In this document: positions 31,447-51,446 of the stretch, one piece after another | Numbering within the stretch: the first letter of the stretch is position 1 | Layout: every line of letters starts with the position of its first letter | Origin: Allomuricauda sp. CP2A | GTDB lineage: Bacteria > Bacteroidota > Bacteroidia > Flavobacteriales > Flavobacteriaceae | Direction of reading: 5' to 3' | NCBI RefSeq assembly: GCF_001683915.1 | Contig: NZ_LXTT01000070.1 | Coordinates: 1-64,000, forward strand | DNA: 64,000 nt | The notes under the pieces: generated by a model | What the model was told of the DNA's origin: nothing | Seen by the model: the letters and a program-made list of their open reading frames with translations, nothing else | Databases searched by the model: none | Translations under genes and position numbers: made by a program

Positions 31447-31460
31447 ATGACAATCGTCAA
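31447..31460 (-). promoter_or_regulatory. Crp/Fnr-type operator driving hemG
   Basis: ATGACAATCGTCAA (TGA-N6-TCA). On the minus strand TACATTTA (31424-31417) matches the -7 box at 7 of 8 positions and ends 36.5 nt from the operator centre. Confidence 0.7.
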
Positions 31461-31481
31461 TTGAATGATTAAAGCAGTGTA

Positions 31482-31495
31482 CTGATGTAGGTCAT
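31482..31495 (+). promoter_or_regulatory. Crp/Fnr-type operator driving the bactofilin-like/NrdJ operon
   Basis: CTGATGTAGGTCAT (TGA-N6-TCA). At the standard 36.5-nt distance lies GAACTTTA (31518-31525), a weaker -7 box that resembles GAACTTTG of the yceI promoter at 59483. The start would be about 17 nt before the ATG at 31549. Confidence 0.6.
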
Positions 31496-31548
31496 TTCAT
31501 TAATTGCTCATTATCAGGAACTTTAAGGTTCTTGTAAAAAATAAGATC

Positions 31549-32733: not shown

Positions 32734-32769
32734 TGTCATATCGATTATTGGATTGTCACCCGAAACAAC

Positions 32770-34485: not shown

Positions 34486-34528
34486 GAAATTCCATAATGA
34501 TCTGTGTTTTAATTTCCAATACATTTGC

Positions 34529-35212
34529 TCAAGGATTGCTTGGTTTGGATTGATTCAGATAACCACTATATTTCTGTAGGCCTTCATTCATCATTTTTAA
34601 TACGGCCTGACTGGTCACGGTGGCACCGGAAATTCCATCAATTGTTGTGTTCCCATCAACAAGTGTTTTTCCACTTTGATGTAGCCCAAAAGTATTTTCC
34701 GTCCAATCTATTTTGCTCCCAATGAATTGGTCTTCAAAGGAGGACAAGGTGATTCCATCTGCGCCGTACTCATCAGATTCCGCTTTATGGTCAAACGCTA
34801 CCTTTGTTATTTCAGAAGTGGTTTTGTCCACCAATACCTTTCCCCAAATTTTTCCACCAAACCCCTTTTCAGACACCATGAGCAAACTGTTTGGAGTGCC
34901 TTTAAATTCAAAAATAGGCAGTGCAGTGGACGTACCGGGTTCCATGACTGTTTTATAAAGCGATAAGGCTTCATCCATGGTTGTTTTTGCCACAATACCT
35001 GTTGTATCCACCACTTTAAAATTCATGACCTTGCTTACATCGGTTGAATCCGTTAAGCTTATGCTGGCAAATTCCGCTATTTCTTTGAGTGCTTGTGGCA
35101 ATTGGTAAGCGGGAGTGGGCTCTTGGGCCAACTCCTCAGTTTTTGAACTGTCCGTTTTTTGTTTACAGCTTAAAAATAGGGCTAAAATTAAAAGGGTGAG
35201 TTTTATTTTCAT
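34529..35212 (-). CDS. FMN-binding (NqrC/RnfG-like) lipoprotein
   Basis: A 227-aa lipoprotein (lipobox LFLSC, Cys16) with an FMN_bind domain. The motif SGATVTS (near residue 200) is where FMN is attached to Thr through phosphate in NqrC/RnfG, and the preceding GFGGKIWGKVLVD is typical of the family. Unlike NqrC it stands alone, without Nqr or Rnf partners nearby. It may be an extracytoplasmic electron carrier. An operator (35305-35318) with a -7 box at the standard distance drives it, so it belongs to the island regulon. Confidence 0.8.
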   Translation of the reverse strand: MKIKLTLLILALFLSCKQKTDSSKTEELAQEPTPAYQLPQALKEIAEFASISLTDSTDVSKVMNFKVVDTTGIVAKTTMDEALSLYKTVMEPGTSTALPIFEFKGTPNSLLMVSEKGFGGKIWGKVLVDKTTSEITKVAFDHKAESDEYGADGITLSSFEDQFIGSKIDWTENTFGLHQSGKTLVDGNTTIDGISGATVTSQAVLKMMNEGLQKYSGYLNQSKPSNP

Positions 35213-35304
35213 GACAAATGGGTTTTAAATTCGAATACTGATGATGGTTACCGTTCCAACATCCATAATTCAAACTAAGATATACGAGAAGGAATTGCCA
35301 TAAA

Positions 35305-35318
35305 ATGATGCTTGTCAG
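35305..35318 (-). promoter_or_regulatory. Crp/Fnr-type operator driving the FMN-binding lipoprotein gene
   Basis: ATGATGCTTGTCAG (TGA-N6-TCA). On the minus strand TATCTTAG (35282-35275) matches the -7 box at 7 of 8 positions and ends 36.5 nt from the centre. Confidence 0.68.
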
Positions 35319-35337
35319 ACCAACCCACTTTTCCAGA

Positions 35338-35351
35338 ATGATGAAGGTCAT
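35338..35351 (+). promoter_or_regulatory. Crp/Fnr-type operator driving the lipoprotein gene at 35427
   Basis: ATGATGAAGGTCAT (TGA-N6-TCA). At the standard distance lies TACATTGT (35374-35381), an imperfect -7 box. The centre is 33 nt from the centre of the divergent operator at 35305. Confidence 0.6.
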
Positions 35352-35426
35352 TTCCTATGCCGGGACTCTACAATACATTGTATCGATATAGGTATAACCC
35401 AAATGTATTTCCTTAAAAAAGTTGTT

Positions 35427-36056
35427 ATGAAAAAAATAGTTGTCGTGATGGTTGCGGGTTTGTTGGCTTCTTGCTCCAGCACCCGATTTGTGGATAGTTG
35501 GAAAAACAAAGAGATTATCTCCTTCAAGCCCGAAAAGCTCTTGGTGGTGGGAATGACCAGTAATTTGACGGCCCGAAAGATTTTTGAGGATGAATTGCGT
35601 TTGGCGTTCATTCAATATGGCATCAATGCGTATGTAAGCGATGGGATCATTGATCAGGAGTTTACTGATGCCCAAAGAAATATGGAAGAAATTGAGGGGA
35701 TGACCCAAAAGTTGGTTGATGAAGGGTTTGACGCTGTGGCCATTTCAGCGGTCAAGGGAGTGGATAGCGAGATGGATTATCGTTCCAGTTATTATGATGT
35801 AGGGTACAGAAGATATCATTTTGGTCGATATTGGTACACCTATCAAGGTATTTATTATACCCCTGAATATTACTCAAACTACAAAGTGTACCATGTGGAG
35901 ACCGCAATTTATAATTTGGTTGGGGGAGAGGACCGGTCTTTGGTCTGGGTAGGTTCGTTTGATATTGTAGACCCCCAACAGATCACTTCAACAGTGGATG
36001 ATTATGTCGCCAGAATAGTTGAGCAGTTAAAACGGGACAAAGTAATAGGGAATTGA
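35427..36056 (+). CDS. Uncharacterised lipoprotein
   Basis: A 209-aa lipoprotein with lipobox GLLASC (Cys15). The globular part contains EKLLVVGMTSNLTARKIFEDEL and a tyrosine-rich stretch (about 115-145, YYDVGYRRYHFGRYWYTY). The start ATG 35427 gives the signal peptide directly; an earlier in-frame ATG at 35403 only adds eight residues. I do not recognise the family with certainty, although the opening resembles small outer-membrane lipoproteins common in Bacteroidetes. It is under the operator at 35338. Confidence 0.6.
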   Translation: MKKIVVVMVAGLLASCSSTRFVDSWKNKEIISFKPEKLLVVGMTSNLTARKIFEDELRLAFIQYGINAYVSDGIIDQEFTDAQRNMEEIEGMTQKLVDEGFDAVAISAVKGVDSEMDYRSSYYDVGYRRYHFGRYWYTYQGIYYTPEYYSNYKVYHVETAIYNLVGGEDRSLVWVGSFDIVDPQQITSTVDDYVARIVEQLKRDKVIGN

Positions 36057-36084
36057 AGAACCGAACCGGTTCAAATAATTTTCT

Positions 36085-36789
36085 CTAAGGGAGGGCCGCT
36101 GCCAAGGCAATTTCCACCATATTGGTAAAGGAAGTTTCCCGCTCATGGGCGGATAGACGCTCGCCGGTGACCAAGGAATCCGAGATGGTCAAAATGGTAA
36201 GTGCGCGGATATTATACTTGGCCGCAATGGTATACAATCCAGCGGTTTCCATTTCTACACATAAAATGCCATATTGGGCCCAGAGTTTGTACTCTTCTGG
36301 ATCATCCACATAAAATTCATCGGAGGAAAGAACATTGCCCGCTTTTATGGGGATGTTGTGCTGTTGTGCGTAGTTCACTGCTTTTTGGAACAACTCAAAA
36401 TCGGCTGTGGGTGAATAGTCGGAATTGATGAACCTTGAATTATTCATGCCCGAGGTGGTGGAGGCGGCCATGGCCAGGACAACATCGTTCAGTTTTACAT
36501 CTTCTTGATAGGATCCTGCCGATCCCACCCGAATGATGTTCTTTACCCCGTAATCTTTGATGAGTTCATGAAAATAAATCATGGAAGAGGGCATTCCCAT
36601 ACCGCTTCCCTGCACAGAAATCTTCATCCCTTTGTAGGTTCCCGTGTAGCCCAACATGCCGCGAATTTTGTTATAGCAGAAGGGACTTTCAAAAAAGGTC
36701 TCCGCAATCCATTTGGCCCGTAAGGGGTCTCCCGGCATCAGCACGGTTTCCGCAACCTCTCCTTTTTTGGCTTCAATATGTATGCTCAT
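36085..36789 (-). CDS. deoD: Purine-nucleoside phosphorylase (DeoD type)
   Basis: A 234-aa hexameric-type PNP (about the 239 aa of E. coli DeoD). It shows MPGDPLRAKWIAETF (phosphate site), GSGMGMPSSMIYFHEL, IRVGSAGS, and VEMETAGLYTIAAKYNIRALTILTISDSL with the nucleoside-site Glu. It cleaves purine (deoxy)nucleosides to base and (deoxy)ribose-1-phosphate. It is the third gene of the TerB-like/deoC/deoD operon, 9 nt after deoC. Confidence 0.95.
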   Translation of the reverse strand: MSIHIEAKKGEVAETVLMPGDPLRAKWIAETFFESPFCYNKIRGMLGYTGTYKGMKISVQGSGMGMPSSMIYFHELIKDYGVKNIIRVGSAGSYQEDVKLNDVVLAMAASTTSGMNNSRFINSDYSPTADFELFQKAVNYAQQHNIPIKAGNVLSSDEFYVDDPEEYKLWAQYGILCVEMETAGLYTIAAKYNIRALTILTISDSLVTGERLSAHERETSFTNMVEIALAAALP

Positions 36790-36798
36790 GGATATGGT

Positions 36799-37437
36799 TT
36801 AGTTCAACAATGATGGCCCGGATGACGTTCCAATTCGGGTAACTCCAAGATCAATATATTTTAATGCGGCCTCCTTGTCCTTGATTCCTCCAGAGGCTTT
36901 AATCTGTGCTTTGTTGCCAACAACCTTTTTCATCAAGATTACATCTTCAAAAGTGGCCCCGCCATCACCAAATCCTGTGGAGGTCTTTACAAAATCGGCA
37001 CCGGCTTCAACGGCCAAGATACAGGCCTTTTCCTTTTCGGGCGTGGTAAGAAAACAGGTTTCAATGATCACCTTCAACAAATGGTCCCCAATGGCTTGTT
37101 TTATGGACTTGATTTCATTGCGAACAGCATCATCCCTATTGGATTTTAACCATCCCAAGTTGATGACCATGTCTATTTCATCCGCACCATTGTCCACACA
37201 ATCCTTTGCCTCAAAGACTTTGGATTTTGTAGACATGGCTCCCAAGGGAAAACCGACCACGGCAGCAATTTTCACTTTGGAGGCCTTTAACGCTTCCCTC
37301 GCCAAGGAAACATGGCACCCATTTACACAAACGGCATAAAAATTATGGGTCTTGGCTTCTTCACACAATTTTTTAATATCCGCTGGAAGTGCTGTGGGTT
37401 TTAGGTTGGTGTGATCTATGAATTCCGGTAAAAACAT
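36799..37437 (-). CDS. deoC: Deoxyribose-phosphate aldolase
   Basis: A 212-aa DeoC. The Schiff-base lysine lies in ADFVKTSTGF, with the proton-relay lysine in IKASGGIKD. It splits 2-deoxyribose-5-phosphate into glyceraldehyde-3-phosphate and acetaldehyde, feeding nucleoside carbon into glycolysis. The ATG (37437) is next to the stop of the TerB-like gene, so the two are translationally close and share the operator at 37895. Confidence 0.95.
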   Translation of the reverse strand: MFLPEFIDHTNLKPTALPADIKKLCEEAKTHNFYAVCVNGCHVSLAREALKASKVKIAAVVGFPLGAMSTKSKVFEAKDCVDNGADEIDMVINLGWLKSNRDDAVRNEIKSIKQAIGDHLLKVIIETCFLTTPEKEKACILAVEAGADFVKTSTGFGDGGATFEDVILMKKVVGNKAQIKASGGIKDKEAALKYIDLGVTRIGTSSGPSLLN

Positions 37438-37438
37438 A

Positions 37439-37843
37439 TCAATGCTTAAAGAGCTGTTTCAATTTAAAGATAATCAACATCTCCGACTTGTTTTTTCCGG
37501 CAAAGGAATAGGCAATGCTCTCTGCGGTTTCCACGATCAGGGCCTTTAATTTTGGGGTGAATTTTTCTGGATGCTCCTTGTAAAATTCCTTGAATGCATC
37601 AAAATATTCATCTCCATCCTTCTCTTCGCCTTCCAACCAATCAAAAACAATTTCTATCTGATAGGCCGCATCTGTATGGAATTCATCCTCAAACCCATCC
37701 ACATCCAACCAGTGTTGCCGAACATATTTCCGTAGCCTTTTTACTTCTACGGGTCTAACGTTTTTGTCAACCATGGCCACAGCGTAAAAGAGCATGCCGA
37801 GGTTTTGGTAGAATTCATTTCCAATTTTTTCTGAATTGAGCAT
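37439..37843 (-). CDS. TerB-like helical protein, paralogue 1
   Basis: A 134-aa all-helical acidic protein of TerB-like type. The opening NEFYQNLGMLFYAVAMVDKNV and the later IEIVFDWL and SIAYSFAGKNKSEML closely parallel the product at 40433-40840. The start at 37843 (MLNSEKIGNEF) is chosen because it aligns with the paralogue's MLDSKKKLGNEF and lies 15 nt after the promoter-predicted start; an upstream in-frame ATG at 37879 would precede it. It heads an operon with deoC and deoD. The function of the TerB-like fold here is unknown. Confidence 0.7.
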   Translation of the reverse strand: MLNSEKIGNEFYQNLGMLFYAVAMVDKNVRPVEVKRLRKYVRQHWLDVDGFEDEFHTDAAYQIEIVFDWLEGEEKDGDEYFDAFKEFYKEHPEKFTPKLKALIVETAESIAYSFAGKNKSEMLIIFKLKQLFKH

Positions 37844-37894
37844 GGCTAAATTTTTATGTTCAATTAAAAATAGCACCAATCCCCATTGTTTTTT

Positions 37895-37908
37895 ATGACA
37901 ACGATCAT
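37895..37908 (-). promoter_or_regulatory. Crp/Fnr-type operator driving the TerB-like/deoC/deoD operon
   Basis: ATGACAACGATCAT (TGA-N6-TCA). On the minus strand TATTTTTA (37872-37865) is a 7 of 8 -7 box that ends 36.5 nt from the centre. It falls upstream of the corrected start at 37843. Confidence 0.75.
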
Positions 37909-39457: not shown

Positions 39458-39471
39458 ATGATATACGTCAT
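39458..39471. promoter_or_regulatory. Crp/Fnr-type operator before the first USP gene
   Basis: ATGATATACGTCAT (TGA-N6-TCA). The perfect -7 box TACATTTG (39494-39501) ends 36.5 nt from the centre on the plus side. On the minus side GACCTTTA (39435-39428) is weaker. An in-frame ATG lies inside the operator at 39458 and therefore cannot be the translation start. Confidence 0.8.
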
Positions 39472-40432: not shown

Positions 40433-40840
40433 TCAGGTCCTGAACAGTAGCTCAATTCGCCCCAACAGTATCAACTCGGACTTGTTGCTGCCGGCAAAGG
40501 CAGAGGTAATGGCTCTGGCTGTGGACATGATGAGCTGTTTCACATGGTCTGGGAACAGGGTTTTGTATTCGGTATAAAAGGCCTCAAATTCTTCATAGAT
40601 TTCATCATTGTCCTTTCCATATTCCAACAGCCAATCAAAAACAGTCTCAATTTGAAAAGCGGCATCAGTCCCATATTCATCCTCAATGTCATCCACATTT
40701 AACCAATGATCGCGTACCACTTCCTTTAACCTGTCTATTTCCTTTACATGGATACTGTGGTCGGCCATGGCAACGGCATAGAAAAGTTTTCCCAAATTCT
40801 GATAAAATTCATTCCCAAGTTTCTTTTTTGAATCCAACAT
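40433..40840 (-). CDS. TerB-like helical protein, paralogue 2
   Basis: A 135-aa protein closely related to the product at 37439-37843. Both share NEFYQNLG.LFYAVAM, an acidic middle with FDWL, and a C-terminal A.A.AFAG.NKSE segment. All-helical, acidic, no signal. The -7 box TATATTTA lies at class II distance from the operator at 40894. The two paralogues under the same operator type suggest a shared stress role, not defined here. Confidence 0.7.
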   Translation of the reverse strand: MLDSKKKLGNEFYQNLGKLFYAVAMADHSIHVKEIDRLKEVVRDHWLNVDDIEDEYGTDAAFQIETVFDWLLEYGKDNDEIYEEFEAFYTEYKTLFPDHVKQLIMSTARAITSAFAGSNKSELILLGRIELLFRT

Positions 40841-40893: not shown

Positions 40894-40907
40894 ATGATGT
40901 AAATCAG
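40894..40907. promoter_or_regulatory. Crp/Fnr-type operator between TerB-like 2 and the sensor kinase
   Basis: ATGATGTAAATCAG (TGA-N6-TCA). Minus side: TATATTTA (40871-40864), a 7 of 8 -7 box, ends 36.5 nt from the centre. Plus side: the likely -7 box of the kinase gene, TATATTTA (40915-40922), ends only 21.5 nt from the centre, so the site would overlap the kinase promoter. Activation leftward with repression of the kinase gene is possible. Confidence 0.68.
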
Positions 40908-40926: not shown

Positions 40927-42456
40927 GTGAAACTCTTAGAGAAAAATGAGGTACTAAAGATTTTAACGGAAGTTATTTCGGAGGGGATCCTCATTGTTGA
41001 TGATCAGCAGAACATTGTGGCCAGTAATGCTGTGGCCGACCGCATGTTCGGTTATTTGGATGGAGAGTTGGGCGGAAAGCCCTTGGAAATTTTGATTCCC
41101 AAAAATATAAGGGGCCAACATAGGGGCGATGCAGGGGGCTTCATACAAAAAGGACGTAGAAGAAAGATGGGGCAAGGCTTAGACCTTGTAGGCCTTCAGA
41201 AGGATGGTGGAGAGTTTCCCCTTGAGATCAGTCTCAATCCATTTACACTGTTGCAAAGGAGGTATGTAATGGCCATTATCGTGGACATTTCAGAGCGGAA
41301 AAAATCAGAGCAGACCATAGACCATTGGTTCGAGGTCTTTAACGAATCCCTCAACGAAATCTATATTTTTGATGTGGAATCCTTTGTGTTCATCAATGTA
41401 AACCGAGGGGCACAGCTTAATTTGGGGTATACCATGGAAGAGTTGAACCAGATGTCCGTTCTCGACATCAAAACCGACCTCTCCCAAGAAAGCTTTCAAA
41501 AATTAATATCACCACTGGTCGATAAAACCAGGGAAAAGGTTGATTTTGAGACCATACACCGAAGAAAGGACGGCTCCGCATATCCCGTTGAAGTGCACTT
41601 GCAATTGTCTTCAATAGGCAAAAAACAAGTATTTCTTGCCATTGTGTTGGACATAACGGAACGGAAAAATTATACCCAGCATTTGGAGAATACGGTAGAG
41701 GAACGCACCGAACAGCTCAGGGAAGCGCTGAAAGCGGAGAAACAGTTGAATGAACTCAAAACAAAGTTCCTGTCCTTGGTCTCGCACGAATTTAAAACGC
41801 CCTTGTCCAGTATTTTGACCTCCAACTCTTTGCTCTCAAAATATACCAAGACCGATCAACAGGAAAAACGGGACAAACACATCAATACCATTAAGGAAAA
41901 GGTAAAATATTTGGACAACATCCTTACCGATTTCCTGTCCATAGAGCGTCTGGATACGGGCAAGGTAAAATACAATATCAGCACTTTTCCTTTGAGCAAG
42001 ATCATCAATGAAGTGATCTATAATTCCAACACACTTTTAAAGGAGGGCCAGCGAATCCAATATCCGAAGGATATTGACGGCATAACCGTGTCCTTTGAGG
42101 AAAAGATCATGGAATTGTCCCTGTCCAATTTGTTGCACAACGCCATAAAATATTCCCACGAGGATACCAACATAGAGCTTCGGGTCACGGAGAACAATGA
42201 TAGCCTCCACATAGACATTATAGATGAGGGGCTTGGCATCCCAGAGGAAGACCAACCCTTTATTTTTGACCGTTATTATAGGGCAAGCAATGTGCTCACC
42301 AGCCAAGGAACGGGAATTGGACTTAATATTGTAAAACAGCATATGTTAAATCTTGGAGCGGACATCAGTTTTAAAAGTAAACCTGGTGCAGGCTCAACAT
42401 TTACGTTGACCATACCTAAAAACAAAAGTGAAGATGAAAAAAATTCTACTGGTTGA
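40927..42456 (+). CDS. Soluble PAS-PAS sensor histidine kinase
   Basis: A 509-aa cytoplasmic kinase with no membrane helix. PAS1 (about 10-125) contains IRGQHRGDAGGF and MGQGLDLVGLQKDGGEFP. PAS2 spans about 135-245, then a coiled coil (250-280), HisKA with phosphoacceptor His287 in SLVSHEFKTPLSS, and a HATPase domain (N box LLHNAIKYS; G boxes DEGLGIPEED and GTGIGLNIV). His65 of PAS1 aligns by eye with the heme-ligand His of FixL, while the distal Arg is replaced (Leu85); heme binding is a hypothesis. The start is GTG 40927, close to a promoter and nearly leaderless. It overlaps the regulator gene by 23 nt. Confidence 0.9.
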   Translation: MKLLEKNEVLKILTEVISEGILIVDDQQNIVASNAVADRMFGYLDGELGGKPLEILIPKNIRGQHRGDAGGFIQKGRRRKMGQGLDLVGLQKDGGEFPLEISLNPFTLLQRRYVMAIIVDISERKKSEQTIDHWFEVFNESLNEIYIFDVESFVFINVNRGAQLNLGYTMEELNQMSVLDIKTDLSQESFQKLISPLVDKTREKVDFETIHRRKDGSAYPVEVHLQLSSIGKKQVFLAIVLDITERKNYTQHLENTVEERTEQLREALKAEKQLNELKTKFLSLVSHEFKTPLSSILTSNSLLSKYTKTDQQEKRDKHINTIKEKVKYLDNILTDFLSIERLDTGKVKYNISTFPLSKIINEVIYNSNTLLKEGQRIQYPKDIDGITVSFEEKIMELSLSNLLHNAIKYSHEDTNIELRVTENNDSLHIDIIDEGLGIPEEDQPFIFDRYYRASNVLTSQGTGIGLNIVKQHMLNLGADISFKSKPGAGSTFTLTIPKNKSEDEKNSTG

Positions 42457-43480
42457 GGATGATACCTCTTTACGGGAAAATATAGAGGAACTCTTAGATC
42501 TATCGGGATTTCAGGTATTTTCTACCCCTAATGGCAAAATGGCCCATGAAATTGCCAAAAGGGAAACCCCGGATATTGTTCTGTGCGATATTATGATGCC
42601 AGAGGTCGATGGTTACGAGGTGCTTGAACAATTTTCTTCCTTTGATGCCACCAGGCACATCCCCTTCATTTTTGTTTCGGCAAAGACAGAGCGCAATGAC
42701 GTAAGAAAGGGTATGGATCTTGGCGCCGATGACTATTTGACCAAACCTTTTGAAGAAGCGGAGCTTTTAAACGCCATACACACTCGTTTGGAGAAAGCAA
42801 CACAGCTTGAGAGTATTTTTTCAAAGCGAAATGAGCAAGACAAACAACACGACATACGATCATTGAACGAATTGAAGAATTTTTTTGATGACCATGGGCA
42901 ACAGTTTTCCTTTAAGAAAGATGAGACCATCTATACAATGGGGGAACACTCCAACATGGTGTACCTTATTTTAAAAGGAGTGGCCAAGTGCTGTGGCTTG
43001 GATGAAGAGGGCAAGGAACTCATCACTTCTGTGTATTCTGAAGACGATTTTTTGGGATTTACCTCCCTGACGGAAAATCTTCCGTATCGCGAATATGCCA
43101 TTGCCATTGAAGATGTGGAACTTGCGGGAATCTCCAAGACCCATGTAAAGTCAATACTTGAAGAAAACCAAAGTGTTTCCTTGGAATTGCTCAATGTTAT
43201 GGCCGAAGATTTGGCACACATAAAAAAGCAATTGTTGCAAATGGCCTATAGTTCTGTCCGAAAAAAAACGGCCCAGACCCTGTTACTGTATTCCCAAACA
43301 ATGAACAAGGGCAAGGAAGGTCCCTTAAGAATAGCAAGAAGCGATTTGGCAGGCGTAGCGGGCATTGCAACGGAAAGCTTGATCAGAACCTTGTCCGATT
43401 TCAAGAATGAAGGCCTAATCGCCATTGAAAACCGAAATATTAGGGTCTTGGACAAAGAGGCCCTCAGCCAAGTCCACTAG
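42434..43480 (+). CDS. Response regulator with cNMP-fold and Crp/Fnr-type HTH
   Basis: A 348-aa regulator with a receiver domain (1-120; Asp9/Asp10, phosphoacceptor Asp52, Lys104), a linker, a cNMP-binding-like domain (about 150-260), a dimerisation helix and a Crp-type HTH (about 300-330). Glu314 and Arg318 align with CRP Glu181 and Arg185, which read the TGA half-site. The cAMP-pocket residues (GEL...RA/RS) are replaced (GFT...REY), and FNR-like Fe-S cysteines are absent from the N-terminus, so phosphorylation is the likely signal. The start is ATG 42434 (MKKILLVEDD); a GTG six nt earlier is in frame. It is the best candidate to bind the operators of the island. Confidence 0.92.
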   Translation: MKKILLVEDDTSLRENIEELLDLSGFQVFSTPNGKMAHEIAKRETPDIVLCDIMMPEVDGYEVLEQFSSFDATRHIPFIFVSAKTERNDVRKGMDLGADDYLTKPFEEAELLNAIHTRLEKATQLESIFSKRNEQDKQHDIRSLNELKNFFDDHGQQFSFKKDETIYTMGEHSNMVYLILKGVAKCCGLDEEGKELITSVYSEDDFLGFTSLTENLPYREYAIAIEDVELAGISKTHVKSILEENQSVSLELLNVMAEDLAHIKKQLLQMAYSSVRKKTAQTLLLYSQTMNKGKEGPLRIARSDLAGVAGIATESLIRTLSDFKNEGLIAIENRNIRVLDKEALSQVH

Positions 43481-43486: not shown

Positions 43487-43500
43487 ATGATATTTATCAT
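43487..43500 (+). promoter_or_regulatory. Crp/Fnr-type operator driving USP 2
   Basis: ATGATATTTATCAT, a near-perfect palindrome with TGA-N6-TCA core. The -7 box TAAACTTG (43522-43529) ends 35.5 nt from the centre, one base short of the usual distance. It is placed 7 nt after the regulator stop. Confidence 0.72.
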
Positions 43501-43548: not shown

Positions 43549-44391
43549 ATGAAAAACATTTTGATCCCCACCGATTTTTCAGAAAACTCTAAGAGAGCTT
43601 TGCGGTATGCCCAAATATTGTTCAGTTCTGTGGAGTGCAACTTCTATGTGCTGTATGTTGGCACCCTTTTGGATACACAAACGGATTCTGTCAAAACTTC
43701 AAAAAAAACGGGCAAGGACATCTCCACTGGGAACACCAAGGAAAAGTTGGTGGATTTGGTGGAAGAATGTAAAAGGCACAGCACGGAGGCAAACCATTAT
43801 TTCTATGCCCTGCACGAGTATGGATTTTTCATCCAGAGCATTAAAAAGAATTTGGAGGAACATCAAATAGACCTAATTGTAATGGGGACCAACGGTGCTT
43901 CAGGAATTAAGGAAAAAGTGGTGGGGAGCAATGCTGGGGACGTCATCACAAAAGTGCAGTGCAATACGTTGGTAATCCCTGAAAAGGTCATTTTTTCCAG
44001 ACCCAAGGAGATAGCTTTCCCTACGGATTTCAATATTTTCTACTCACACGGAATTATAAGTTCCATGGCAGAAATGTTGCAATTGGGCCCGGGCAAGCTT
44101 AGGGTAATGAATGTCATAAAAAATGGGGACGAACTCAATATGGACCAAAAAAAGAACAGGGAATACCTGTTTGATTATTTGGAAGAGACATTTCCAAACC
44201 GGTACAGTTTTCATACCATTACCAATAAAAACGTAAAATCCGCCATTCAATGTTTTGTGGAGAGCAGGGATATTGAAATGATCATAATGGTGGCCAAAAA
44301 CCTGAATTTTATTCAGCAGATCTTGTTTGACTCCATTGTGGAAAAAATCAGTTTTCATACCAAAATCCCATTTTATGTGATCCACGAATAG
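43549..44391 (+). CDS. Universal stress protein, tandem two-domain (USP 2 of 9)
   Basis: 280 aa. The N-terminal UspA domain starts MKNILIPTDFSENS and has the ATP motif GTNGASGIKEKVVGS. The C-terminal domain lacks this motif and ends KISFHTKIPFYVIHE. It lies directly after the kinase/regulator pair under its own operator, with a short predicted leader of about 14 nt. Confidence 0.9.
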   Translation: MKNILIPTDFSENSKRALRYAQILFSSVECNFYVLYVGTLLDTQTDSVKTSKKTGKDISTGNTKEKLVDLVEECKRHSTEANHYFYALHEYGFFIQSIKKNLEEHQIDLIVMGTNGASGIKEKVVGSNAGDVITKVQCNTLVIPEKVIFSRPKEIAFPTDFNIFYSHGIISSMAEMLQLGPGKLRVMNVIKNGDELNMDQKKNREYLFDYLEETFPNRYSFHTITNKNVKSAIQCFVESRDIEMIIMVAKNLNFIQQILFDSIVEKISFHTKIPFYVIHE

Positions 44392-44408: not shown

Positions 44409-44422
44409 GTGACCAATATCAT
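44409..44422 (+). promoter_or_regulatory. Crp/Fnr-type operator driving the USP 3-6 operon
   Basis: GTGACCAATATCAT (TGA-N6-TCA). The perfect -7 box TATCTTTG (44445-44452) ends 36.5 nt from the centre, and the ATG at 44468 lies about 11 nt beyond the predicted start. Confidence 0.8.
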
Positions 44423-44467: not shown

Positions 44468-45313
44468 ATGAGAACAATACTCATTCCCACAGATTTTTCA
44501 AAGAATGCACTGCATGCATTGAAGTATGCCCAGGAACTCTACAAATGTGAGCGCGCTTGCTTTTTTGTTCTGCACACGTATATGGATGAGGTTTACGGTG
44601 CCTACAAAACGGCTTCCGTAGAAGATATGGAAGCGCAAAAAGAAGCAAAGAAAAAGGAATCGGAGAAAAAACTGGACAACTTGCTACAGTCCGTGATAGG
44701 GACACCCCCAAACCCATTGCACAATTTTGAGACAATCGCTTCCTTTGATAGCCTTGTGGACGGCATCAACGATTTTGTCAATGAGATGAACATTGACTTG
44801 GTCATTATGGGAACAAAAGGGGAGACCAGTGACCATAAAACCACCTTTGGCAGCTATACCATAGAGGTTTTTAAGTATGTAAAATGCCCCGTGTTGGCCA
44901 TTCCGGAGGACTTTGAATACAAACAGCCCAAGGCCATTCTTTTTCCAACAGATTACATGTTGCCCTATAAGCGCAGGGAGTTAAAACTCTTGGGCGATTT
45001 GGCGGGGAAGTTCAAATCTGAGGTGCATTGCCTGTATTTTACAGATTTTGATGAACTGAGCTCCAGACAGGAAGACAACAAGCGATTTCTTCAGGATTCT
45101 CTTTCAAAGGCTTACCTCTCCTTTGGGACCTCATCGGTAAAAAACAAAGCCGATGCCATTATGGAATACATAGAAAAACGGGAAGTGGGCATGTTGGTCA
45201 TGGTAAATTCCAGGCACTCCTTTTTTGAGGATATGCTCTACCGTTCCACTGTTGATTTGCTTGGACTTAAAGTGAAAATTCCATTTTTGGTCATGCAAAA
45301 TCTCAATCGATAA
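44468..45313 (+). CDS. Universal stress protein, tandem two-domain (USP 3 of 9)
   Basis: 281 aa starting MRTILIPTDFSKNALHALKYA. The N-domain ATP motif is GTKGETSDHKTTFGS. The C-domain carries the island-type signature VNSRHSFFEDMLYRSTV instead of a second ATP motif. The start at 44468 is chosen because the promoter -7 box ends at 44452, excluding an in-frame start near 44450. First gene of a four-USP run (USP 3-6). Confidence 0.88.
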   Translation: MRTILIPTDFSKNALHALKYAQELYKCERACFFVLHTYMDEVYGAYKTASVEDMEAQKEAKKKESEKKLDNLLQSVIGTPPNPLHNFETIASFDSLVDGINDFVNEMNIDLVIMGTKGETSDHKTTFGSYTIEVFKYVKCPVLAIPEDFEYKQPKAILFPTDYMLPYKRRELKLLGDLAGKFKSEVHCLYFTDFDELSSRQEDNKRFLQDSLSKAYLSFGTSSVKNKADAIMEYIEKREVGMLVMVNSRHSFFEDMLYRSTVDLLGLKVKIPFLVMQNLNR

Positions 45314-45333: not shown

Positions 45334-46197
45334 ATGAAAAAGATATTGTTGCCCACCGATTTTTCCAAGAACGCTTGGAATGCCATTGATTATGCGCTCA
45401 ACTTTTTTAAAAATGAAAAGTGCACTTTTTATCTGTTGAATGCCTACACGCCATCCTTTTATAGGGTAGATTATATGTTTGGCGGGCCGGCACAAAGTGC
45501 CATACCGGACATTGGCATCGATCTTTCCCTCGAGGGGCTGGAACATGTCATGAAGCGCATCAAAAAAGAACACAAAAACCCCAACCATCAATTCAAGGCC
45601 TTGTCCGCTTTCAATACATTGACAGATGAAGTACAGGAAGTCTGTGAGGATAAAAAAATAGATATGGTGGTCATGGGAACCCAAGGGGCTTCCGGGGCCA
45701 AAGAGTTTTTCCTTGGTTCAAATACCGTTCATGTCATTAGAAAAGCCACAGTGCCCGTCTTGACGGTCCCTACAAAATATGCTTTCAAGGAAATAAAAAA
45801 AGTGCTTTTACCCACTGGATATTGGTCCAAGTACAAATCAAATGAAATAAAACCTTTGATAGATCTTGTTAAAACATTTGGAGCCGACCTGCATGTGGCA
45901 CATGTTGTGGAAGAACATGATTTGACGAGCGTACAGATGGAAAATAAAAAGCATTTGGAGCAATTACTGGAAGGAATCCCAACGGTTTTTAAAGATATTA
46001 CAGATGAATATATGCCCAATGGCCTGCACACCTATATTGAAAAGAACGCTATAGGGCTCATTGCCATGATGAACCGTAAACATTCATTTTTGGAGCGGCT
46101 TGTGCTCAAACAAAATGTAGATGCTGTGGGATACCATAGTGCGGTGCCCTTTTTGGTGCTGCCCGACACGGCTGACATATCAAAAAACCGGAAATGA
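45334..46197 (+). CDS. Universal stress protein, tandem two-domain (USP 4 of 9)
   Basis: 287 aa. The N-domain ATP motif GTQGASGAKEFFLGS lies at 115-129. The C-domain signature is MNRKHSFLERLVLKQNV and it ends VPFLVLPD. It is most like USP 7 (shared AYTP-x-x-YRVDY segment at about 38-47). A 39-bp stretch near its start is identical to one in USP 5. It overlaps the USP 5 start (stop and start share bases 46194-46197). Confidence 0.9.
   Translation: MKKILLPTDFSKNAWNAIDYALNFFKNEKCTFYLLNAYTPSFYRVDYMFGGPAQSAIPDIGIDLSLEGLEHVMKRIKKEHKNPNHQFKALSAFNTLTDEVQEVCEDKKIDMVVMGTQGASGAKEFFLGSNTVHVIRKATVPVLTVPTKYAFKEIKKVLLPTGYWSKYKSNEIKPLIDLVKTFGADLHVAHVVEEHDLTSVQMENKKHLEQLLEGIPTVFKDITDEYMPNGLHTYIEKNAIGLIAMMNRKHSFLERLVLKQNVDAVGYHSAVPFLVLPDTADISKNRK
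45349..45387 (+). repeat. 39-bp exact repeat, copy 1 (USP 4)
   Basis: The 39 bases encoding LPTDFSKNAWNAI are identical to 46212-46250 in USP 5. USP 6 is similar but has several synonymous differences. Identity at synonymous sites suggests recent duplication or gene conversion. Confidence 0.85.
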
Positions 46198-47048
46198 TGA
46201 AAAATATACTCTTGCCCACCGATTTTTCCAAGAACGCTTGGAATGCCATTTTCATGGCCGTAAAACTTTACGCCGATATGGAATGCAAATTTTATGTGTT
46301 GCACACCTTCGAGCCCAAAAAAGAAAACATTGCTGGGTTTAAAAGCAGCACCCGGGCCGGAGTGGTATACCAATCCTTGGCTGAAGCATCGGAAGGGCAG
46401 CTTGGGGAGATTATGGAATATTTAGAGAAAAACCACAAGAATCCAAAGCATAGCTTTGGGAAGTTGTCCATTTCGGGAGGGCTGGTGGAAACCATCCGGG
46501 ACCTCGTGCCAAAGTACGACATTGACACCATTGTCATGGGAACCAAAGGTGCAACCGGGGCCAAATCGGTCTTTATGGGCAGTAATGCGGTAAACGTCTT
46601 AAAAGGCATTAAGAACTGTGTTACGGTGGTAGTTCCCGAATCTTATGATTTCCAAAAACTGGAATCGTTGGTCTTTCCTACGGAGTATGTCCATTTTTTT
46701 CCAAAAAATGTACTTCAACCGCTATTGAAATTGATCACATTGTGGAATTCCAAAGTCAAAGTGTTCCATGTGGCACAGACCTTTGGCTTATCGGAGACAC
46801 AAAAATCGAACAAGGAAATCTTGAAAAAGCGGTTTGCAGGTCATCCAACCTCCTTCCATAAGGTGGTCATAAAAACCACTGTGGCAGAGGCCATACGGCA
46901 ATTTGCGGAAGAAGAAAGGACCGACATGATCGTACTGACCAACTATTCCCATGATTTTTTTGATAAATTGACACAGGAACCTGTGGTAAAAAAAGTAACT
47001 TTTAGAACCGAAATCCCTTTGATGGTCCTACCAGATTTTCAGGGATAG
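46194..47048 (+). CDS. Universal stress protein, tandem two-domain (USP 5 of 9)
   Basis: 284 aa (ATGATG at 46194/46197; either codon may start). The N-domain ATP motif is GTKGATGAKSVFMGS. The C-domain has TNYSHDFFDKLTQEPVV, a variant of the island signature, and ends IPLMVLPDF. Its start overlaps the USP 4 stop, indicating coupled translation. Confidence 0.9.
   Translation: MMKNILLPTDFSKNAWNAIFMAVKLYADMECKFYVLHTFEPKKENIAGFKSSTRAGVVYQSLAEASEGQLGEIMEYLEKNHKNPKHSFGKLSISGGLVETIRDLVPKYDIDTIVMGTKGATGAKSVFMGSNAVNVLKGIKNCVTVVVPESYDFQKLESLVFPTEYVHFFPKNVLQPLLKLITLWNSKVKVFHVAQTFGLSETQKSNKEILKKRFAGHPTSFHKVVIKTTVAEAIRQFAEEERTDMIVLTNYSHDFFDKLTQEPVVKKVTFRTEIPLMVLPDFQG
46212..46250 (+). repeat. 39-bp exact repeat, copy 2 (USP 5)
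   Basis: Identical to 45349-45387; same part of the first USP domain. See copy 1. Confidence 0.85.
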
Positions 47049-47066: not shown

Positions 47067-47921
47067 ATGAAACGAATTGTACTGCCCACCGATTTTTCCA
47101 AAAATGCATGGAATGCCATTAACTATGCGCTATCCATCTTCAAAGGTGTGGAGTGCGAGTTCTTCATTGTGAACGCCTACCAAGTGGGTTCCTCTGGCCT
47201 GGCCACCAAAAGGGGAAGGGCCAATGATACCCGTTTGTTCCGGTTGATGAAAGAACAATCAGAGCGGGAGCTCAAAAGGCTTATGGAAAAAATCAAGGAA
47301 ATTGGTGACAACCCCAAACACAGTTTTACCACATTTTCCATTGCGGACAACCTTGTTAATGCCATTGGAAAGACCGTCTACAATAAGGAAGTCGATTATA
47401 TAGTGATGGGGACCAAAGGGGCGTCTGGACTTAAAGAAGTTTTTATGGGCAGCAATACCTATAAAATCATCAATGAAATAGATTTTTGCCCCATTATTGC
47501 CGTTCCCGATGAGTATACAATCAAGGATTCCATCAATACCATTGTGTTGGCAACCGGGTATGAGCATCTTTTTGAAACCTACGAGCTACATCCTCTTTTG
47601 AAGCTTGCAAAACTTTTTGACGCTGAAATATGGGTAACCCACGCTGGAAACCCAAATGAATTGACTCCCCAACAGCTTGCATCGAAAAAAGTCATGGAAA
47701 AGAAGCTGAAAAGCGTAAAGCATAAATTTGTTGAAGTGGAAAAAGGGAGTTCAATACACAGTGCCATTCAAAAAACTGTTGAAGAGAACAAGGATGTGGA
47801 CATGGTGGCCATGATAAACTACGGCCATGGATTTTTTGAAAAGCTTACCCATGAGGCCGTTATCAAGAAAGTTTCCTTCAATACCCAAGTGCCGTTTTTG
47901 GTGATGCACCTGTTTGAGTAA
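47067..47921 (+). CDS. Universal stress protein, tandem two-domain (USP 6 of 9)
   Basis: 284 aa starting MKRIVLPTDFSKNAWNAINYA. The N-domain ATP motif is GTKGASGLKEVFMGS. The C-domain has INYGHGFFEKLTHEAVI and ends VPFLVMHLF. Last of the USP 3-6 run, 18 nt after USP 5, convergent with the thioredoxin gene. Confidence 0.9.
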   Translation: MKRIVLPTDFSKNAWNAINYALSIFKGVECEFFIVNAYQVGSSGLATKRGRANDTRLFRLMKEQSERELKRLMEKIKEIGDNPKHSFTTFSIADNLVNAIGKTVYNKEVDYIVMGTKGASGLKEVFMGSNTYKIINEIDFCPIIAVPDEYTIKDSINTIVLATGYEHLFETYELHPLLKLAKLFDAEIWVTHAGNPNELTPQQLASKKVMEKKLKSVKHKFVEVEKGSSIHSAIQKTVEENKDVDMVAMINYGHGFFEKLTHEAVIKKVSFNTQVPFLVMHLFE

Positions 47922-47940: not shown

Positions 47941-48240
47941 TTACATAAAGGATTTTACTACTTGGACAATCTCGGATTTTTGCAGTACACCAGATTGCCG
48001 CCATAGTTGTTGCCCTTTTTTGAAGAGCAGCATGGTGGGAACACCCCGCACTTGGTATTTGTTGGCCAAGGGTTGGTTTTTGTCCACATCAATCTTTACA
48101 ATTTTCACCGAATTTCCCAATTCTTCCTTCACTTCTTTGAGGATGGGCGCCAACATTTTGCACGGTCCGCACCATTCTGCGGAAAAATCGATCAGCACCA
48201 ATTGGTCAGCGTCTATCAGGTCATTAAAATTTCCTTTCAT
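47941..48240 (-). CDS. Thioredoxin
   Basis: A 99-aa thioredoxin with the redox motif WCGPCK (24-29) and the cis-Pro segment VRGVPTMLLF. No signal peptide, so cytoplasmic disulfide reduction. It shares the operator at 48291 with USP 7 on the other strand; on its side the -7 box is TAAATTGC (48268-48261) at the same 36.5-nt distance. It may supply electrons to the class II RNR, whose family uses thioredoxin; that pairing is inferred. Confidence 0.95.
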   Translation of the reverse strand: MKGNFNDLIDADQLVLIDFSAEWCGPCKMLAPILKEVKEELGNSVKIVKIDVDKNQPLANKYQVRGVPTMLLFKKGQQLWRQSGVLQKSEIVQVVKSFM

Positions 48241-48290: not shown

Positions 48291-48304
48291 TTGATGAAAA
48301 TCAT
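48291..48304. promoter_or_regulatory. Crp/Fnr-type operator shared by thioredoxin and USP 7
   Basis: TTGATGAAAATCAT (TGA-N6-TCA). Plus side: perfect -7 box TAGTTTTG (48327-48334) ends 36.5 nt from the centre. Minus side: TAAATTGC (48268-48261), a weaker box, at the same distance. Confidence 0.78.
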
Positions 48305-48350: not shown

Positions 48351-49193
48351 ATGATGAGGATTGTATTGCCCACGGATTTTTCAGAGAATGCATTCAATGC
48401 CATTGCATATGCAGCCAAATTAGTAAAGGATACTACCTGTATTTTTTATCTCTTGCATGCCTACACGCCACCTATTTATCGGGTGGATTATACTTTGGGC
48501 AGTCCTGGCCAACTTGGGCTCCCTGATGACCATAGATACAGTGCCGAGGTCGCTTTGGAAAAAACCAAGAAAAGAATCAAAGCCAAGTTTGACAATCCCA
48601 GGCATGAATTTGTGACCCATGCGGCCTTCAATACTTTGGAAGATGAGATCAAGACCATGGTAATCAAGGAGAACATAGATTTGATCATCATGGGAACCCA
48701 AGGTGCAACCGGGGCCAGAGAAATATTGTTTGGATCCAACACCGTTCATGTCCTTAAAAAAGCCATTGTTCCCGTTTTGGCCGTCCCATCCAATTTTGAC
48801 TTCACCCCACCTAAAAGAATAGTGTTCCCCACAGATTATGAAGTGGATTATGCGCATACGGACCTGGATTTCTTGTTGCACTTGTCAAAATTATGGGGTG
48901 CCAAACTGCATGTAATGCATGTTTCCACTCCTGATGGACTCACGCCACTACAAAAAACAAACAAGGCAAATCTCCAGAAAATGATGCACCAACACGCCCA
49001 TGAGATCCATGATCTTCCAGACCAAGAACTCGTAGAGGCCATAAATACCTTCCAAGAAGAAGTCCCTGTTGATATGTTGGCCATGGTAAAAAACAAACAC
49101 TCCTTTTTGGAGCGTCTTTTTGTGGAGCCCATAATCAAAAATATTGGGTTGCATAGCAAAGTTCCCTTTTTGGTGCTTTCGTATAACCCCTAA
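48351..49193 (+). CDS. Universal stress protein, tandem two-domain (USP 7 of 9)
   Basis: 280 aa from ATG 48351 (or 48354, giving MRIVLPTDF). The N-domain ATP motif is GTQGATGAREILFGS. The C-domain signature is KNKHSFLERLFVEPII, ending VPFLVLSYNP. It resembles USP 4 in the AYTPPIYRVDY segment. First of a USP 7-8 pair. Confidence 0.9.
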   Translation: MMRIVLPTDFSENAFNAIAYAAKLVKDTTCIFYLLHAYTPPIYRVDYTLGSPGQLGLPDDHRYSAEVALEKTKKRIKAKFDNPRHEFVTHAAFNTLEDEIKTMVIKENIDLIIMGTQGATGAREILFGSNTVHVLKKAIVPVLAVPSNFDFTPPKRIVFPTDYEVDYAHTDLDFLLHLSKLWGAKLHVMHVSTPDGLTPLQKTNKANLQKMMHQHAHEIHDLPDQELVEAINTFQEEVPVDMLAMVKNKHSFLERLFVEPIIKNIGLHSKVPFLVLSYNP

Positions 49194-49205: not shown

Positions 49206-50021
49206 ATGTTACAGATAGTAGTGCCCACCGATTTTTCCAATAACTCGTACAATGCGCTGTTTTATGCTGCCCAACTTCTAAAAGATAAGAAATGTACTTT
49301 TCATGTGGTGAATGTTTGCGGCAATGAAGGCGAATCAAAAATTGAGGAAGCCAAAATTGAATCTGCCCAAGGTCTAGATGCCATTTGCCATAGGTTGGTA
49401 AGGGATGTTGGCAAAAATAAAGAGCACCAACTCAAAAAAGTTTCGCTATGTGCAGATGTTAACAAAGGCATTTCCAATTATGTGGAAGAACAAAAGGCCG
49501 ACCTCATGGTCATCGGGAACAAGGCCAAAGAGGAGGTAAAGCACATTTTGTTCGGTACAAACGCCATGCAATTGGTACGGGAGGTCACTATCTGTCCCAT
49601 TCTTATTGTTCCCTTGGAGATAGATTTTAGGAACGTGGAAAAAATTGGATTTATCTCCAATTACGCCAACCCCATTTCAGAAGAGAACATCCGCGCCCTG
49701 CAATTTTTTCAAACAGTGACGGACAGTGCTCTGGTGCCGATGAGCATTGATGATGGTAAAGGCGAAAAAAGGGTCTTGGAGCACAAGAAAAGTTTTTTTT
49801 CGGCTCTTTCAGAAAAGATGTCCAAAGAGGTGGTACTGCCCGTTTTTGGGGATAAGACAAAGACCATTATGGAGTTTGTGGATTTATGGAACATAGATTT
49901 GCTCTGCATGGTGTATTATCCGCATCATTTTTTCTTGGAGTTTATTGGGAATGGAATAATTAAGGAACTGAACACCAAATTAACCGTCCCATTTTTGATT
50001 TTGTCCCATCAGGCAAATTGA
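49206..50021 (+). CDS. Universal stress protein, tandem two-domain, degenerate ATP motif (USP 8 of 9)
   Basis: 271 aa starting MLQIVVPTDFSNNS. The ATP-motif region reads GNKAKEEVKHILFGT: the second Gly is Ala and the final Ser is Thr, so ATP binding may be reduced. The C-domain has VYYPHHFFLEFIGNGII, a diverged island signature. It is 13 nt after USP 7. Its stop codon lies inside the next operator. Confidence 0.85.
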   Translation: MLQIVVPTDFSNNSYNALFYAAQLLKDKKCTFHVVNVCGNEGESKIEEAKIESAQGLDAICHRLVRDVGKNKEHQLKKVSLCADVNKGISNYVEEQKADLMVIGNKAKEEVKHILFGTNAMQLVREVTICPILIVPLEIDFRNVEKIGFISNYANPISEENIRALQFFQTVTDSALVPMSIDDGKGEKRVLEHKKSFFSALSEKMSKEVVLPVFGDKTKTIMEFVDLWNIDLLCMVYYPHHFFLEFIGNGIIKELNTKLTVPFLILSHQAN

Positions 50022-50031
50022 CTTAAATCAT
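50018..50031 (+). promoter_or_regulatory. Crp/Fnr-type operator driving USP 9
   Basis: TTGACTTAAATCAT (TGA-N6-TCA). The left TGA is also the stop codon of USP 8. The -7 box TAGCTTTA (50054-50061), 7 of 8, ends 36.5 nt from the centre. Confidence 0.7.
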
Positions 50032-50079
50032 GGCACAGGATGACAGCTTAGTGTAGCTTTAATGAAAAACCAAGTGGTC

Positions 50080-50931
50080 ATGGACAAAAGAGTGTTGTTG
50101 CCTACGGATTATTCTAAAAATGCATTGAATGCCATTAGATATGCATTAGATCTCTACAAAGATATTCAGTGTGATTTTTATATTTTGAATGCGTTTCATG
50201 TTTCGGGCTATACTTTGGACAGTATGATGGTTCCTGAACCGGGAGAGCGTTTCTACGATTTGGCCAAAAAAGAATCTGAGGAAGGGATGGAGCGGCTCAT
50301 GGAAATGATTAAACTCCACCCAGAAAACCCAAAACATCGATTCCATACCATTTGCACGTTCAACAGTTTGGTGGAAGCCATTAAGAACGTGATTGCAAAA
50401 AAGGATATTGATCTCATCGTTATGGGAACCAAAGGTTTGACCGAATCGAAGGCACGGATTTTTGGCACCAACACGGTATCGGTAATGGAAGCTATAAAAA
50501 AATGCCCTGTCATTGCCGTTCCCAGTGATTATTTATATGCTCCGCCCAAAGAAATTGTTTTTCCAACGGATTACAAAACAGACTTTAAGAAGACCGAGAT
50601 GGCCCAATTGGTGGAGATCGCAAAATTGCACGACTCAAAAATCAATGTGGTGCATATTGATAAGAACAAGGACGGAAAGTTGAACAAGCAGGAAGAAACC
50701 AATAAACGGTTATTGCAAGATATTTTGGATGGTACCGATTATGAGATCCATTTTTTGTCGGCCGTTAAAATCAGCAAGGGCATCAACCTTTTTATTGAAA
50801 GCAAGGATTGCGATATGGTTGCATTTATGAACAGAAAACATTTGTTTTTTGGCAGCATACTTTCCAATCCGTTGGTAAAGGAAATTGGGTATGAGCCCAC
50901 AATACCCATTTTAGAACTGAATGATAATTGA
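50080..50931 (+). CDS. Universal stress protein, tandem two-domain (USP 9 of 9)
   Basis: 283 aa from ATG 50080 (MDKRVLLPTDYSKN). An in-frame ATG at 50062 directly abuts the -7 box and would precede the predicted transcript start, so 50080 is preferred. The N-domain ATP motif is GTKGLTESKARIFGT. The C-domain has MNRKHLFFGSILSNPLV. Followed 13 nt later by the eRF1-like gene. Confidence 0.88.
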   Translation: MDKRVLLPTDYSKNALNAIRYALDLYKDIQCDFYILNAFHVSGYTLDSMMVPEPGERFYDLAKKESEEGMERLMEMIKLHPENPKHRFHTICTFNSLVEAIKNVIAKKDIDLIVMGTKGLTESKARIFGTNTVSVMEAIKKCPVIAVPSDYLYAPPKEIVFPTDYKTDFKKTEMAQLVEIAKLHDSKINVVHIDKNKDGKLNKQEETNKRLLQDILDGTDYEIHFLSAVKISKGINLFIESKDCDMVAFMNRKHLFFGSILSNPLVKEIGYEPTIPILELNDN

Positions 50932-51385: not shown

Positions 51386-51399
51386 TTGATTTATATCAT
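51386..51399 (+). promoter_or_regulatory. Crp/Fnr-type operator driving the coiled-coil/Hsp20 operon
   Basis: TTGATTTATATCAT (TGA-N6-TCA). TACTTTCA (51422-51429), a weaker -7 box, lies at the standard 36.5-nt distance. Confidence 0.62.
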
Positions 51400-51446
51400 T
51401 TCACAGGAACCAACCAAACCTTACTTTCATGTTCAACTTCAAATCA

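Follow-up and report, generated by a model that had tools for sequence, protein, structure and literature searches.

A receiver–Crp/Fnr fusion regulator, its FixL-like partner kinase and an FNR-type operator in Bacteroidia

We analyzed a stretch of 64,000 nucleotides from the flavobacterium Allomuricauda sp. CP2A (contig NZ_LXTT01000070.1, positions 1 to 64,000; hereafter the window), which encodes a response regulator whose receiver (REC) domain is fused to a cNMP-binding fold and a Crp-type helix-turn-helix (HTH). The palindrome TGAYN4RTCA (N4 sites below) found around this gene is a real promoter element, and this operator is probably common to the fusion regulator and to a stand-alone FNR protein of the same genome, the fusion not being its exclusive reader. 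We consider it likely, from the sequences of the two partners, that a FixL-like sensor phosphorylates the regulator, which would act as a fused FixJ/FixK-like class II activator of genes for universal stress proteins (Usp), Hsp20 and cbb3 oxidase. On the best reading, by analogy with known systems, the logic of FixL-FixJ-FixK and that of FNR would be combined in one fused regulator. The two genes concerned are:

40927-42456, + strand: partner histidine kinase, 509 aa; PAS (FixL-like)-PAS-HisKA-HATPase_c (Pfam); its 3' end overlaps the start of the regulator gene
42434-43480, + strand: REC-cNMP-HTH_Crp response regulator (P0001), 348 aa; phospho-acceptor D52, recognition-helix residues E314 and R318

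The fusion regulator and its distribution

Three Pfam domains were found over cut-off in the regulator: Response_reg at residues 4-115 (1.1e-29), cNMP_binding at 159-245 (1.7e-15) and HTH_Crp_2 at 280-346 (3.6e-12). The receiver presents the residues of a response regulator (the acid pair D9/D10, the phospho-Asp D52, S82 and K104), and the combination of a cNMP fold with an HTH_Crp bearing an E-x3-R pair places the protein in the Crp/Fnr superfamily. These results confirm the domain composition given in the original prediction, which was made from the sequence without database searches, including Asp52 and a kept Glu-xxx-Arg pair at 314 and 318. Six residues (E8, D9, D52, K104, E314 and R318) do not vary among the 30 rows of an alignment of the window protein with 29 orthologues, nor do they vary in a 15-row alignment with more divergent members. 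Conservation is strong in the recognition helix (AGIATESLIRT) and in the linker (LNELKNFFDD) of the 29 orthologues, which are 53-61% identical to the regulator.

The regulator differs from FixJ, which has a LuxR-type HTH, in that its output domain is HTH_Crp_2 and not of the LuxR/NarL type, and it differs from FixK, which stands alone without a receiver, in carrying REC at 4-115. Its only cysteines are C51, C186 and C187, and the N-terminal cysteine cluster of the Fe-S protein FNR is therefore absent from its sequence, in line with the earlier remark that no Fe-S cysteines were to be seen. AlphaFold2 (alignment of 15) returned three domain folds with a mean pLDDT of 82.5 and left the arrangement of the domains undefined (pTM 0.41), so we make no claim on interdomain contacts. 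With Foldseek, the 50 best matches listed were all CAP/CRP-type chains (19-27% identity); the VIA-align rows for the regulator span the REC part only.

The arrangement had been described as uncommon, which the survey of genomes contradicts. Full-length matches to the regulator, defined as 280 bits or more in a profile search, were found in 56 of the 98 genomes of the same class, Bacteroidia (tallied from rows). This class-wide occurrence indicates that the fusion is a class-wide type rather than an oddity. Holders identified by name include Aquimarina, Salinimicrobium, Arcticibacter, Mucilaginibacter, Chitinophaga, Jiulongibacter and Sphingobacterium. No full-length match was detected in the 297 genomes of the phylum outside the class, where the best score (184.5 bits) corresponds to the receiver part only. 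We also found a second REC-CRP subfamily with 39-46% identity to the window regulator; a full-length relative of either subfamily is present in 54 of the 120 genomes of the family sample (tally).

The partner kinase and its probable signal

The kinase adjoins the regulator in the window, in all 20 family loci and in 12 of 14 named loci (by script). Its first PAS domain matched 14 distinct PDB sequences under an E-value of 0.01, the best of which was FixL (1d06, 6e-11). The remaining matches were other FixL sequences, DosP/YddU, entries for heme-PAS domains and a kinase labelled "multi-sensor histidine kinase" (10jx), which may or may not bind heme. The candidate heme His of the window kinase sits in LIPKNIRGQH, and the His aligned with the heme His of FixL is conserved in 20/20 of the subfamily-1 kinases that were examined, namely that of the window and those of 19 relatives, with L065 excluded for a miscalled regulator ORF. 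With a FixL-related PAS bearing this His, a HisKA and a HATPase_c domain, the protein has the sequence of a FixL-type kinase, from which we infer that it would bind heme and sense O2. Since the kinase encoded upstream of the regulator bears a FixL-like PAS, a feature that escaped the original prediction, the input of the system is probably oxygen.

It is rather unlikely, though worth weighing, that the regulator is phosphorylated upon another signal (light, redox, NO or a nutrient), the PAS of the kinase being degenerate or binding another ligand. Several features of the kinases weigh in this direction and against an oxygen input: the window kinase has Leu at the position of the distal Arg220 of FixL, where 17 of the 20 kinases have Arg; at the named loci, three of the 12 adjacent kinases lack the FixL-type His, which the other 9 possess; and 6 of the 12 kinases of the second subfamily bear a LOV-like NCRFLQ motif. 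However, the His is conserved throughout the subfamily-1 kinases examined, and genes associated with low oxygen (cbb3, HemN, FixI) are found near the regulator in several loci, where they carry the operator. Oxygen thus remains the probable input.

Kinases of the second subfamily (loci L043-L056) are mostly large multi-PAS proteins, 9 of 12 being 676-1109 aa long, and two of them bear a variant of the LOV-like motif. The neighbours of this subfamily include pyruvate phosphate dikinase (PPDK), YceI and Hsp20, and its loci contain 57 intergenic N4 sites in 18.6 kb, relative to 0-3 at other spacings. Through this subfamily, the same operator may come under the control of light or of the redox state of a flavin.

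The operator and its promoter geometry

The pattern TGANNNNNNTCA presents 44 matches in the window, relative to 24.35 +/- 4.71 in shuffles, and none of 100 shuffles contained as many. In addition, 16 of the 22 TGAYN4RTCA sites of the window are intergenic, that is, within 6.0 kb of the 64 kb. The motif that had been reported around the regulator is therefore real. With another open reading frame cut-off, 14 intergenic N4 sites remain in the window, compared to 0-1 at each of seven other spacings. We extended the search to the 20 best relatives after the window, using 11.7-20 kb around each regulator: these 20 loci contain 106 intergenic sites at N4 and 0-3 at each of the seven other spacings. 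The regulator gene and the Usp gene that follows it (Usp1) have a site between them in the window, in 20/20 family loci and in the nearest named relative (L080). The alternative operator TTGAN6TCAA was rejected, as it presents no enrichment in the window (2 found and 3.54 expected).

These sites stand at a fixed distance from a promoter element. The Bacteroidota -7 box TAnnTTTG was found 29.5 bp from the site centre in 47 of 148 oriented sites (window and 20 loci) when exact and in 100 of them with at most one mismatch (mean hits per offset, 2.2). When the better orientation of each site is retained, 98 of 113 sites have the box at this distance with at most one mismatch, and the Usp1 promoters of the 20 relatives have it exactly in 19 cases and with one mismatch in the other. 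In F. psychrophilum, the -7 box was mapped at -12 to -5 (PMC9723704). Because the box lies 29.5 bp from the site and covers -12 to -5, the centre of the site falls at about -41.5, the position of a class II activator site, as computed from the box distance to the F. psychrophilum positions.

Not all observations conform to this picture. In the window and in L080, the -7 box of Usp1 is one base closer and carries a mismatch (by eye). The site at 40895-40906, between the kinase and a divergent gene, lacks class II geometry towards the kinase; its -7 box at class II distance (one mismatch) faces the divergent gene. Nothing in this arrangement consequently suggests that the kinase operon is subject to class II activation, and its autoregulation found no support. 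Finally, the genome of the window as a whole contains 361 TGAYN4RTCA sites and 439 at a control spacing, which is no excess.

The signal of the motif is confined to intergenic, clustered sites. In a comparison of 40 regulator-bearing genomes with 40 that lack the regulator (80 in total), genome-wide counts showed no consistent excess over N7 in either group; such counts are unusable because the coding background dominates. A control with the reversed pattern (361 relative to 78 in the window genome) was not used, as it differs in composition. Within the regulator loci, a site was found in 48 of 86 Usp upstream regions, compared to 0-1 at other spacings. Dispersed Usp genes were rejected as targets: in two sets of 30 loci, which are the best-scoring Usp matches and not a random sample, an upstream site was found in 2/31 regions of regulator-bearing genomes (other spacings, 0-1) and in 3/30 of genomes with FNR only (0-2). 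Because dispersed Usp genes mostly lack a site, the operator is no rule for all Usp genes. The mean number of Usp matches per genome was 14.3 in 15 regulator-bearing genomes and 6.9 in 20 FNR-only genomes, where matches count domains and not genes and the genomes were chosen by the author.

An operator probably shared with FNR

The original prediction took the regulator for the likely controller of the regulon with these sites, a claim to be given up if another Crp/Fnr protein of the genome bound the motif instead or if the motif occurred in genomes lacking the regulator. Taken literally, both situations were encountered: the genome encodes a second Crp/Fnr protein with an E...IR helix, and the motif is present in 20 genomes without the regulator. 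These findings point to a shared motif and do not speak against its use by the regulator.

Three proteins of the window genome score over the HTH_Crp_2 cut-off: the regulator, an FNR on contig 28 and a Crp-type protein on contig 14, whose helix (TSRVVISR) lacks the recognition Glu. The stand-alone FNR (G000:C28, L057:4538-5227) has the helix GTATESAIRIIS, nearly identical to GIATESLIRTLS of the regulator. Its match to the solved FNR (5e-26) is second only to that with the Crp/Fnr structure 2gau. It has a CxxC near its N-terminus and a Cys aligned with the distal Cys of FNR, and lacks the third N-terminal Cys of the solved FNR; judging from these residues, a three-Cys cluster is possible. Its gene lies between FixI and a Usp gene, with operator sites beside them.

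At the FNR loci of the 20 genomes without the regulator, we found 45 intergenic N4 sites relative to 1-4 at other spacings, and these sites stand at cco, FixI, hemN and other genes. The operator is thus probably common to both proteins, as indicated by an FNR with a nearly identical helix in the same genome and by the motif in genomes without the regulator. Both facts count against a regulon belonging to the fusion alone. Moreover, since the helix of FNR should read the same site, single sites of the window cannot be assigned to one of the two readers.

The flanks of the operator were considered as a discriminator of two specificities. An A at position -2 is found in 3/24 and 1/33 of FNR-core sites and in 55/91 of the other sites in regulator loci, and the base at -1 of the ccoN site is A in 16 of 18 FNR-only genomes and C in 18 of 24 REC-CRP genomes without FNR. 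However, among six supported independent pairs on the CcoN tree, the -1 base tracks FNR in an average of 1.1 pairs and runs opposite to it in an average of 1.1. This discriminator was rejected because the base before TGA, which is A in one part of the family and mostly C in another, follows the clade on this tree and not the regulator.

Genomes that possess the fusion without FNR are more informative. Half of the 54 regulator-bearing genomes have an FNR orthologue (27 with and 27 without), an orthologue being defined as 229 bits or more, with the next best stand-alone match anywhere at 133.8 bits; FNR-less genomes were examined among fusion holders only. Fourteen of the 20 regulator loci come from FNR-less genomes and contain 72 intergenic N4 sites in 26.8 kb, compared to 0-3 for each other spacing. 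All but one of the 27 FNR-less genomes have ccoN, and in 24 of the 26 its promoter carries both the site and, with no more than one mismatch, the -7 box (0-2/26 at other spacings). In the 40 comparison loci, three of which lack ccoN, the ccoN site was found in 18/18 FNR-only genomes and in 18/19 genomes with both regulators. The CcoN tree (60 rows) is a gene tree in which many branches are weak; along it, FNR switches between present and absent 11 times, and at least six of these switches are forced by well-supported branches.

In genomes with the fusion, the operator is thus retained even though FNR has been lost. Because the motif persists in 27 FNR-less genomes, including at the cbb3 promoter, the fusion regulator very probably reads TGAYN4RTCA too. 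The original claim accordingly stands in that the regulator most likely reads this motif, and is not supported as far as sole ownership is concerned.

We regard as improbable the alternative in which FNR alone reads the sites of the window, other Glu-bearing Crp proteins do so in FNR-less genomes, and REC-CRP acts elsewhere. The likeness of the two helices (ATESAIRI in FNR and ATESLIRT in the regulator), the match to the solved FNR, the sites on both sides of the FNR gene between FixI and Usp, and the motif in FNR-only genomes all speak for it. Of the further Crp-type stretches that were read in FNR-less genomes, 24 in all, the recognition Glu is absent from 16 and present in eight, and Glu-bearing proteins of this kind occur in at least 8 of the 27 FNR-less genomes (G027, G031, G036, G041, G054, G075, G078 and G108). 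These numbers weaken the case for the fusion in part, as it is false that REC-CRP is the sole Glu-bearing Crp protein in all FNR-less genomes. However, the 72 intergenic sites of FNR-less loci and the 24 ccoN promoters argue against FNR as the only reader, and six genomes argue against the other Glu-bearing proteins. In G040, G069, G090, G101, G105 and G114, all other HTH_Crp_2 hits over cut-off were read and all lack the Glu; five of the six keep the ccoN site, G040 being the one without, and the Usp1 site is present in all four of them that are among the 20 loci.

Proposed mechanism and comparison with known systems

In a HMMER alignment, F209 and Y218 of the regulator pair with the Glu of Gly-Glu and the Arg of PRTSS in M. 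tuberculosis CRP (3h3u), where these two residues contact cAMP. The regulator thus lacks these residues of a cAMP-responsive CRP, as the original prediction had stated for its cyclic-nucleotide pocket, and its sequence supports a pocket of a non-cAMP type. The loss of cAMP residues is the normal state of FNR/DNR/FixK-type members and so is unsurprising by itself. That the cNMP fold binds a new small ligand, forming an AND gate with REC, seems improbable: the pocket positions are non-random (in the 30-row alignment E220 is invariant, and Y218 nearly so), but E220 varies in the more divergent alignment, the conservation of both residues may be structural, and FNR/FixK-type members function ligand-free.

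In the mechanism that we propose, the kinase, probably cytosolic, would sense O2 (or redox/NO) through its FixL-type heme PAS. The kinase activity of FixL is inhibited by O2 (PMC4999443). If the analogy holds, low oxygen would be the condition under which the regulator is active and under which the kinase would autophosphorylate and transfer its phosphate to D52. Once phosphorylated, REC would stabilise the cNMP/HTH module, which would be FNR-like and free of ligand, as an active dimer predicted to occupy TGAYN4RTCA at about -41.5, a site and a geometry that are observed. Because of the class II position of the site, activation rather than repression is expected, and the regulator would be a class II activator of sigma-A promoters with the TAnnTTTG -7 box. 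Its targets would be the Usp/Hsp20 cluster, cbb3 oxidase and probably PPDK and others. The regulator would overlap with the FNR encoded alongside it in this genome, and in FNR-less species it seems to assume control of the cbb3 promoter of FNR; it would in effect be a FixJ input fused to a FixK output. More tentatively, and with a confidence slightly short of even, we propose that Bacteroidia possess a one-protein equivalent of FixJ and FixK, in which a heme-PAS kinase directly phosphorylates an FNR-like activator that shares the operator of FNR. FNR could then be dropped repeatedly, the cbb3 promoter being handed to two-component control with its operator unchanged.

The regulator shares with FNR/Anr its fold, the E...R pair, half-sites of the TGAY...RTCA type, class II geometry and the cco operator; it differs by an input that would come through REC phosphorylation and by the absence of N-terminal Fe-S cysteines. 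The CRP proteins of E. coli and M. tuberculosis, which are among its closest folds, also combine a cNMP fold with a Crp HTH, but the regulator has its cAMP-contacting residues replaced and a REC domain added. In the DosS/DosT-DosR system of Mycobacterium, a heme kinase acts through a response regulator on a dormancy regulon rich in Usp, Hsp20 and RNR (ribonucleotide reductase); it differs by a GAF-heme kinase and a NarL/LuxR-type output. The Usp/Hsp20 cluster is a candidate low-oxygen survival regulon comparable with the DosR or Anr regulons.

FixL-FixJ-FixK of Alphaproteobacteria controls cco, hemN and related genes alongside FnrN (PMC4999443). The likeness extends to a heme kinase (here a predicted one), a receiver, a Crp/Fnr-type output, cco/hemN control and coexistence with an FNR-type regulator; the difference is that FixJ activates transcription of fixK, whereas receiver and Crp output are here one protein without a FixJ/FixK relay. 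NmpRSTU of Myxococcus xanthus links a heme-dependent kinase and a response regulator to an oxygen-utilisation regulon with cbb3 and HemN, and universal stress proteins are also discussed there (PMC11841059); it differs in its protoglobin sensor, multi-step relay and NtrC-like regulator.

Bacteroidota are a major group in sea, soil and gut, and oxygen control seems little described in them. The literature searched, partly as listings and the beginnings of abstracts, yielded no receiver-Crp fusion and no oxygen regulator of this kind in Bacteroidota, and we do not present the architecture as new to the literature. The sensor, regulator, operator and promoter geometry proposed here are candidates open to direct testing, and the FNR-less genomes constitute a natural experiment: FNR, a one-component regulator, and a two-component system appear able to replace each other at one operator.

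Genes and sites of the window

The remaining features of the window are:

25129-37907: stretch with outlying intergenic sites at 25129, 25147, 31448, 31483, 35306, 35339 and 37896 (motif search)
32770-34485: RNR large subunit, in the stretch with outlying sites
39459-39470: site TGATATACGTCA, upstream of a Usp gene
up to 40432, + strand: Usp gene (Pfam), coding start probably near 39608 (from translation)
40433-40840, - strand: 135-aa protein without Pfam match, divergent from the kinase
40895-40906: site TGATGTAAATCA, in the gap that separates the kinase gene from the divergent 40433-40840 gene
43488-43499: site TGATATTTATCA, between the regulator and Usp1; -7 box about 28.5 bp off by eye (29.5 in relatives)
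43549-44391, + strand: Usp gene 1 (Pfam PF00582)
44410-44421: site TGACCAATATCA; -7 box TATCTTTG at class II distance
44468-45313, + strand: Usp gene 2 (Pfam)
45334-46197, 46194-47048 and 47067-47921, + strand: three Usp genes (Pfam)
47941-48240, - strand: thioredoxin (Pfam)
48292-48303: site TGATGAAAATCA; -7 box TAGTTTTG at class II distance
48351-49193, 49206-50021 and 50062-50931, + strand: three Usp-type genes (translations; Pfam for the last only)
50019-50030: site TGACTTAAATCA; -7 box TAGCTTTA, one mismatch
51387-51398: site TGATTTATATCA, ahead of 51429-51866 and Hsp20; -7 box TACTTTCA, two mismatches
51930-52370, + strand: Hsp20 small heat-shock protein (Pfam)
56442-59168, - strand: PPDK
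59244-59459: stretch with intergenic sites at 59244, 59409 and 59448, between PPDK and the YceI gene
59514-60116, + strand: YceI protein

The genes near the sites (Usp, Hsp20, thioredoxin, PPDK, YceI and cbb3 oxidase) fit survival under low-oxygen or energy-poor conditions, in which they resemble the oxygen-utilisation regulon of NmpRSTU in M. xanthus (PMC11841059). A relative of the 40433-40840 protein adjoins the kinase in 14 of the 20 loci. In the window, this protein is related to that encoded at 37439-37879 (- strand), which likewise has no Pfam match, and an operator is found ahead of each of the two genes.

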